A DNA stretch of 54,040 nucleotides from a virus. A program made the translations under genes and the position numbers. Of this stretch, positions 52,975-54,040 are shown piece by piece. The stretch's first letter is position 1. Each line of letters starts with the position of its first letter. Below the pieces are notes generated by a model that was not told the origin of the DNA, did not search any database, and saw only the letters and a program-made list of their open reading frames with translations. The stretch is from the IMG/VR virus record IMGVR_UViG_3300027793_000108, positions 1 through 54,040 of that record; one strand, written 5' to 3'.

Positions 52975-53083
52975 TCTTTAGGCTAAAGTTTTCAAAAATT
53001 TTTTCTGTTCTGATTTTCAGGGGATTCTGGGTTCACAGCCTAGGGTCCCCTGACTGATTATAGATCATATTTCTTCAAATGTC
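52975..53083. other. Gap between convergent units, no gene
   Basis: Holds an AT-rich segment (TTTTCAAAAATTTTTTC at 52990-53006), then the hairpin at 53017-53053. No open frame or promoter is recognised. GA and TC are common here up to 53082-53083, the last TC in the window, so the boundary of the GA/TC-free segment is sharp. Confidence 0.7.
53017..53053. terminator. Hairpin between convergent genes
   Basis: TCAGGGGA pairs with TCCCCTGA, and the inner part pairs further with G-U wobbles around a loop near TTCACAG. No strong T-run on either side. It may stop both the MazG unit and any leftward transcript from the GA/TC-free segment. Confidence 0.5.
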
Positions 53084-53138
53084 TGGCGGGGGCTAATGGC
53101 CCAACGCACCTTATACGGGCACGCGGGGCCACCACTAC

Positions 53139-53327
53139 TTAAAGGCGTGCGCGGGGTTGGCGGCTGGCGCGCATGGCGTGCGCGTGCGCGGCATAGGCTG
53201 GCGGGTTAGTGCCTAGCCATTGCCAAGCCAAATTGCGCACGGCAAGCGGCAAGGCGCTAACGGCAAGGGCGCGGGCATAGGGCCGCACGCGGCTAGCAAG
53301 GGTTGCAGGGGCGTTTTGGTTTTGCAT
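53139..53327 (-). CDS. Putative acid-free basic protein (62 residues) in the GA/TC-free segment
   Basis: ATG at 53327, product MQNQNAPATLASRVRPYARA to RASRQPRARL, stop TAA. It has nine Arg and no Asp, Glu or Lys, so it is strongly basic. AAGG lies about ten bases upstream, usable as a ribosome site without GA. The hairpin at 53361-53385 separates it from the gene before. Frame length and start context support a gene, but the skewed composition lengthens chance frames as well. Confidence 0.42.
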   Translation of the reverse strand: MQNQNAPATLASRVRPYARALAVSALPLAVRNLAWQWLGTNPPAYAAHAHAMRASRQPRARL

Positions 53328-53360
53328 GGGGTAAAAGCCTTAAAAGGGTTGCAAGGGTAA

Positions 53361-53385
53361 CCAGCGCCCATTTATAGGGCGCTGG
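53361..53385 (-). terminator. Perfect hairpin between the two genes of the GA/TC-free segment
   Basis: Nine-bp stem CCAGCGCCC/GGGCGCTGG with a seven-base AT loop, followed on the minus strand by TTACCC. It lies 15 bases after the stop of the larger gene. A terminator made without GA or TC, or an mRNA-processing hairpin. Confidence 0.55.
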
Positions 53386-53399
53386 CGTGGGTTGGCGTG

Positions 53400-53837
53400 T
53401 TAGGCTTGGCTTACAAGCGCCCAAGGCAAGGCGGCTTGCCGCGCCTGCGCCTTGTAGCAGCCGCGCACACTGGCGCGCTTGTTGCTGCCTAGCGTGTTGC
53501 TGCCTAGGGCATGCCCCGCGTTGGCGGCTGGCCAACCTAGGGCCGCGCCTAGGGTTGGCAAGGCGCTAGCAAAGCCTTGCCATTGCGCCTTAGTGTAAAG
53601 CACACCAGCCGCAGGCATTGGCAAGCCTAGGGCCGCGCAATGTGCAGCAAGGCAGGCCGCAGTATTAGTACCCATTTTACCCGCTGGCGCAATGCCTGTT
53701 ACTACTACATGGGTGTAGTTAGCTTGGCTAGCGGCTTGCCATGTTTGGCTAGCGGCTGGCGTTTGGGCTACGCTAACGGCTGGCATAGCGTTTGGGGTTT
53801 GGGTTGCGGTTGCGCGGGTTGCGTTAGTTTTAGCCAT
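53400..53837 (-). CDS. Putative acid-free protein (145 residues) in the GA/TC-free segment
   Basis: ATG at 53837 begins MAKTNATRATATQTPNAM, a natural-looking start, with AAGG at about nine bases. The first 38 residues are Thr/Ala/Gln-rich and probably disordered. From about 41 there is a patterned domain: THVVVTGIAPAGKMGTNTAA, LGLPMPAAGVLYTKAQWQG, GAALGWPAANAGHALGSNT. No Asp or Glu occurs, as the dinucleotide ban requires. Alternating hydrophobic pattern and Trp/Tyr positions suggest a real fold that has been kept while acidic residues were excluded. No family is recognised. It reads toward the MazG gene. Confidence 0.55.
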   Translation of the reverse strand: MAKTNATRATATQTPNAMPAVSVAQTPAASQTWQAASQANYTHVVVTGIAPAGKMGTNTAACLAAHCAALGLPMPAAGVLYTKAQWQGFASALPTLGAALGWPAANAGHALGSNTLGSNKRASVRGCYKAQARQAALPWALVSQA

Positions 53838-53988
53838 TGTATTTACACCTTGTAAGTTAGGCCCGTTAAGCTAGCGGGCGGGTTGTTGCCTTGTTGGCAA
53901 GGGTAGTTTTACGGCAAGGCAGGCAGGCTTGCAACAGGGTTGCGCAGTGTTTTATTGCATGGGTGGCATGCGCAAACGCATAGGCGCT

Positions 53989-54036
53989 TGGCTGGCTGGC
54001 TGGCTGGCTGGCTGGCTGGCTGGCTGGCTGGCTGGC
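53989..54036. repeat. (TGGC)12 tetranucleotide repeat
   Basis: Twelve perfect TGGC units with no interruption, followed by CTAG at the window edge. Slipped-strand variation in copy number is expected. It also obeys the GA/TC rule. Confidence 0.95.
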
Positions 54037-54040
54037 CTAG

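Follow-up and report, generated by a model that had tools for sequence, protein, structure and literature searches.

The right end of the analysed viral DNA carries a 958-nt segment in which neither GA nor TC occurs, and comparable blocks are present in about 20 other phages. The blocks contain small transcription units with a shared anatomy, a usual genomic position and a conserved avoidance of both dinucleotides; the avoidance is selected at the level of the DNA and is associated with one clade of phage 5-hmdU DNA kinases (HMUDK). As a tentative explanation, the unit may be kept free of TC and GA to escape a TC-directed hypermodification that the phage applies to its own DNA, which would leave it readable for the host RNA polymerase.

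Extent and parts of the GA/TC-free segment

The window, that is, the whole stretch of 54,040 nt that was analysed and the entire IMG/VR record, has no GA and no TC at positions 53083–54040 by dinucleotide count, where about 110 are expected. The last TC to the left lies at 53082, giving a gap of 959. Both dinucleotides have a normal frequency in the window as a whole (observed/expected, o/e, 1.04 for GA and 1.06 for TC), and its second-longest GA/TC-free run is 105 nt. The recount agrees with the sequence-only reading, which had reported their complete absence from 53083 to the window edge; the odds given there, of order 10^-55, compare with a recomputed expectation of 10^-55.6 such runs from the window's rate. 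Given the segment's own base composition, log10 P is -51, and 3,000 letter shuffles of the segment yielded a mean of 110 GA/TC and a minimum of 87. Both strands obey the rule, inside the ORFs as well as outside them, which had also been stated.

A second IMG/VR contig, IMGVR_UViG_3300042691_033868 (G001), is 100% identical across window positions 43403–54032, including the junction at 53083. It continues beyond the window end and is GA/TC-free for 976 nt up to its own end, with 10 GGCT copies against 11 in the window. Because both contigs are still GA/TC-free where they end, neither reaches the right edge of the element. A pattern search for (GGCT)n gave no match apart from the same phage. The relevant features of the window are the following.

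53083–54040, minus strand: transcription unit without GA or TC, incomplete at its right (upstream) edge; 0 GA/TC in 958 nt, at least 976 nt in G001
53400–53837, minus strand: 145-aa ORF without Asp or Glu, Ser by AGY codons only; 0 GA/TC, about 30 expected, P = 4.8e-18
53139–53327, minus strand: second ORF of 62 aa, putatively coding, without Asp or Glu; 0 GA/TC, about 16 expected, P = 5.4e-10
53361–53385, minus strand: terminator-like perfect hairpin of 9 bp right behind the 145-aa stop, from sequence and folding; position shared with ten other units
53848–53851, minus strand: AAGG, Shine-Dalgarno-like site of the 145-aa ORF
53906–53934, minus strand: promoter-like TTGCAA-N17-TAAAAC, 8 of 12 consensus matches, weak taken alone
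53990–54033, plus strand: (GGCT)11 repeat; both contigs stop just beyond it
53019–53051, no strand assigned: hairpin by sequence, between converging plus-strand genes and the element
48492–50162, minus strand: portal protein (phrog_145, E = 7e-94), with the unit 2.9 kb upstream
14422–14526, no strand assigned: second GA/TC-free run of 105 nt, in a spacer and gene end; 0 of 300 block shuffles reach 105

An ORF as long as 145 aa has a 3% chance probability in GA/TC-free DNA, and the case for coding therefore comes chiefly from relatives, whose units are built alike. Searches of the segment and the 145-aa protein against phages and plasmids with blastn and tblastn returned no match. The single match from a scan of genome contigs, in Pseudomonas alliivorans, was discarded as chance, since a conserved gene of 654 aa runs across it on the opposite strand.

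The window phage and related GA/TC-free units

The polymerase of the window phage is closest to that of Mesyanzhinovviridae (39–40% identity). A third contig, G002 (69 kb), overlaps window positions 1–29934 and reaches 39.5 kb past the left end, which makes the phage at least 93.5 kb long; G002 stops short of the GA/TC-free segment. Over the window and G002 together, TerL and portal are widely separated, unlike in relatives. A tRNA-like sequence, GGCTCAATAGCTCAGTGGATAGAGCA..., is found in a G002 spacer (L097) after about 39.4 kb, at window offset -9707 to -9461. At G002:48209, 43138, 53225, 32849 and 62770 there are short spacers free of GA/TC that carry terminator-like hairpins, some with stems of 12–14 bp as judged by eye. 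A general avoidance of GA/TC in all spacers of the phage was considered and set aside, the effect being weak (0.89 vs 1.10).

Three genes for modification of thymine stand in a row in the window:

9364–10257, minus strand: 5-hmdU DNA kinase (PF18723 HMUDK_hel, E = 1.5e-29)
8528–9349, minus strand: TAGT glycosyltransferase (PF20691, E = 2.6e-9)
7470–8531, minus strand: thymidylate synthase homologue, probable dUMP hydroxymethylase by sequence homology

Judged by homology, this row is the machinery of thymine hypermodification. The modified T of phages M6, ViI and phi W-14 sits in TG or TC (PMC6449724), and treatment with 5hmdU kinase renders DNA resistant at TG- or TC-containing sites (PMC7653180).

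Viral contigs were collected with HMUDK as bait, and each full contig was then screened for every one of the ten strand-symmetric dinucleotide classes; the contigs are incomplete, and the block E-values are approximate because independent steps are assumed. GA/TC blocks (E<1e-3) were detected in 17 of 22 newly fetched contigs of the clade, compared with six for AA/TT and 0–2 for any other class. The longest block measures 1,102 nt (G083), and further examples have 693 (G082), 682 and 570 (G085), 677 (G100), 648 (G098), 622 (G099), 539 (G102) and 512, 491 and 213 nt (G092); the first bait had yielded blocks of 844 nt (G010) and 475 nt (G004). The check proposed in the sequence-only reading, a search for long GA/TC-free runs in other phage contigs, thus finds them in about 20 phages besides this one. 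The runs without CA/TG or AC/GT that were seen at G046:30685, G064:33921, G053:5576 and in G006 turned out to be ordinary low-complexity, apparently coding, repeats. A search of the open-access literature found no description of such GA/TC-free units.

On the HMUDK tree, a block is present in 19 of 24 contigs of one clade versus 2 of 31 elsewhere (Fisher 2.4e-8), a significance that is inflated by shared ancestry, which explains part of the association. Most loci were found through the HMUDK bait. Five contigs of the clade have no block, and G010 lies outside the clade yet carries 844 nt; G105, one of the two carriers outside it, is repeat-rich. A scan baited with the portal protein, independent of HMUDK, gave 27 of 47 loci in the clade's family versus 0 of 33 in distant relatives (Fisher 7e-9), the two portal groups having been divided after the result was seen, at a gap of 53% vs 49% identity. 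The five large contigs among the distant portal relatives are without HMUDK. The TAGT glycosyltransferase was ruled out as the common factor, as its gene is missing from G004, G006 and G010.

Eleven units display the same order of elements, consisting of promoter-like hexamers, AAGG as the ribosome site, an ORF encoding 108–173 aa and, right behind its stop codon, a stable hairpin. The hairpin follows the stop in 11 of 11 units, and the promoter-like and AAGG sites fall mostly within the free zone. The -35 box is itself GA-free in most units (TTGCCA, TTGGCT, TTGCAA). The cleanest unit, that of G004, extends from TTGCCA-N17-TAACAT through a terminator with an A/T tail and is nearly coextensive with its free zone. 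Units are usually positioned 0.3–5 kb upstream of terminase/portal, with L372, L378 and G089 farther off.

A second GA/TC-poor site recurs in an in-frame linker of a gene near polA, which we take to be DUF3310-like, in part from the annotation of a Rhizobium phage. At L199:13002-13655, L210:13995-14678, L224:15900 and other loci, the DUF3310-like gene has an Ala/Pro/Gly/Thr-rich linker encoded by GA/TC-free DNA, and the insert precedes a conserved C-terminal (E)HPFGYD tail. The Ala/Pro/Gly-rich composition accounts for part of the GA/TC scarcity in these linkers.

The unit proteins differ among phages. One group, family A, comprises 25 distinct genes among the contigs analysed, with 39–90% identity to the first member, and GA/TC avoidance is kept throughout, at 0–48 GA/TC per ORF as called (density 0–0.071), the top values including over-extended starts; each protein has 0–3 Asp plus Glu. 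Families B and B2 were found in G083 and G085, whose kinases are the nearest to that of the window phage. No relatives were found for the ORFs of the window, G004, G010, G092 and G102, and no relationship was detectable between the 145-aa protein and family A or between the 62-aa ORF and family B2. Homologues of the 145-residue protein, which the sequence-only reading had suggested looking for in other GA/TC-free contigs, were not found in other phages; the proteins encoded there in segments of this kind differ and are mostly unrelated. Searches of the unit proteins against Pfam and PHROGs gave no match, with a single exception, a family A protein that hit an unnamed PHROG (5e-5). AlphaFold2 predicts for family A a disordered N-terminal stretch of 48 residues and a small helical C-terminal part (pLDDT about 75–88), and comparison of the model with the PDB gave no fold match.

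Selection on the DNA and its possible cause

In a recoding test, the protein was held fixed and synonymous codons were drawn by phage codon usage. For the 145-aa ORF, 10.0 GA and 19.7 TC are expected on the sense strand and none of either is observed (P = 5e-18), in line with the earlier statement that codon choice alone cannot produce the segment. Over the units without any GA/TC, the probability of finding none ranges from 1e-10 to 1e-26. At fourfold-degenerate sites of the window phage genome, the steps T|C (1.07) and G|A (1.09) show no depletion. The recoding probability and the normal fourfold sites together imply that the rule acts on the DNA of the segment, rather than on the protein or the whole genome. 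GC-richness is not the cause, since the unit of G102 is GA/TC-free at a GC content of 0.38. The ORFs of G004, G010, G102 and the window are unrelated and have the DNA property alone in common. A near-free gene at G010 13397–13875, in which the remaining GA fall mainly at Asp/Glu codons, again indicates pressure at the DNA level.

Among the causes considered, escape from hypermodification fits best, because the phage encodes an HMUDK, and those of its relatives that have been studied act on the T of TG/TC; the sequence-only reading had listed DNA that escapes a context-dependent base modification among its possibilities. We favour this explanation, tentatively. The kinase of the clade, with a presumed preference for TC, would mark the T in TC for bulky hypermodification. 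Purging TC from both strands would leave GA missing on the other strand, and promoter, gene and terminator would thus carry no hypermodified base. The host RNA polymerase could then read the unit while the modification dampens the remaining genome, if silencing of this kind operates in vivo. The reading may take place directly after entry, or late, once the DNA is fully modified, and the product, a small protein nearly without acidic residues, would presumably be required at that stage. In vitro, bacterial RNA polymerase is blocked by bulky modifications, and transcription was turned off once the DNA had been phosphorylated by 5hmU DNA kinase (PMC11550810).

Several observations count against this explanation. 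Within the blocks TG has its normal frequency (o/e 1.07), yet the literature gives both TG and TC as targets; a kinase specific for TC would therefore be required in the clade. HMUDK phages from other clades, the isolates M6, MW2, Epa5 and, in the parts covered, Sonora among them, have no block. DUF3310 linkers and spacers, which are not transcription units, contain smaller blocks free of GA/TC, and a site beside the packaging genes is unexpected for an immediate-early gene.

The main rival is a cis-acting site, likeliest for packaging (pac/cos) or for the initiation of replication, that is left unmodified for protein binding and in which the ORF merely rides; a packaging or replication region that must stay unmodified was likewise among the possibilities of the sequence-only reading. 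The usual place 0.3–5 kb upstream of terminase/portal, the second recurrent site in the DUF3310 linker near polA, the strong hairpins in the units and the ends of several contigs close to the block are all consistent with such a site. However, family A proteins are conserved and come with promoter, ribosome site and terminator, 0.3–1.2 kb is long for a binding site, and L372, L378 and G089 lie farther from terminase/portal; we regard a cis-acting site as some way from likely, if deserving of serious weight. A host or phage nuclease or toxin that attacks DNA at GA/TC without any involvement of HMUDK, with the gene outliving the cutting of other unmodified DNA, is unlikely. The loss of nearly every GA/TC from both strands is what a lethal cut site would demand, but the rest of the window phage genome is rich in GA/TC with no synonymous depletion, the feature is tied to an HMUDK clade, and we know of no nuclease with a two-base site.

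Rather improbable is an anti-defence role, in which a host enzyme would attack hypermodified bases and the exempt unit would still express an inhibitor. The anatomy would be the same as that of a gene escaping modification, and differing proteins do occupy the same place, whereas no host enzyme or inhibitor has been identified and the products lack an informative family or fold match.

The sequence-only reading had called for either strong selection or a process of mutation or editing. Selection is borne out by the recoding test and by the recurrence in about 20 phages; context-dependent mutation or editing, for example a TC-specific deamination that stripped GA and TC, is very improbable. AA/TT is the most over-represented step inside the blocks (o/e 1.29), as such a process might leave, but the undepleted fourfold-degenerate sites of the same genome contradict a genome-wide process and would leave only one restricted to the unit, the edge at 53083 is sharp, and promoter, hairpin and ORF are all intact. 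The transferable segment proposed in the same reading showed no sign of itself in the repeats and family matches examined, which gave no repeats at the left junction and no transposase or integrase family. A mobile palindromic GA/TC-free element inserted at tolerant places would account for the hairpins of the blocks and for their occurrence in orphan ORFs, in-frame linkers and spacers, but is hardly credible, as no terminal repeats were found at the left junction in the window (the right end lies beyond both contigs), different blocks share few words except in G006, and the usual position is maintained across the clade. The chance of an assembly artefact or chimera, also raised beforehand, is negligible: the window and G001 both stop in the block close to a simple repeat, but their junctions are identical, and some 20 further contigs contain this type of block in their interior, at a comparable position.

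If escape from hypermodification is correct, the units would represent a new mode of gene regulation, by absence of a modifiable dinucleotide, in which a purged unit sets the expression of one gene apart from the modified genome, and phages would pay for hypermodification and yet exempt one gene. The target step of a DNA-hypermodifying enzyme could then be read from sequence alone, and modification motifs could be predicted from genomes by combining kinase clade with forbidden step. Expression from heavily modified phage DNA would become a directly testable question. A new set of small phage proteins almost without Asp/Glu would also be defined, with polymerase factor, packaging factor and anti-defence as candidate roles.

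Comparison with known systems

The window phage shares the thymidylate synthase homologue, HMUDK and helicase/polymerase genes with the 5-hmdU DNA kinase phages (M6, ViI, phi W-14; Mesyanzhinovviridae), and in M6, ViI and phi W-14 the modification has a two-base context, TG/TC. Unlike the window phage, M6, MW2 and Epa5 have no GA/TC-free block, and Sonora has none in the parts covered (1–50000 and 56001–63825).

The TC-specific deaminases DddA and APOBEC3 share their TC context with the step forbidden here. They would be expected to mark neutral sites genome-wide, whereas the synonymous sites of this phage bear no such mark. CmdTAC is reported to ADP-ribosylate mRNA at GA dinucleotides (PMC11618068), GA being the step at issue in both cases. 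An mRNA target would, however, select against GA on the sense strand only, and here sense-strand TC is equally absent (0, with 19.7 expected, beside 0 GA with 10.0 expected); avoidance of GA at the mRNA level as an escape from CmdTAC was rejected on these counts. In restriction-site avoidance by phages, a short word is likewise selectively lost on both strands. The present case differs in that a two-base word is lost from one unit of 0.3–1.2 kb, while the remaining genome keeps it.
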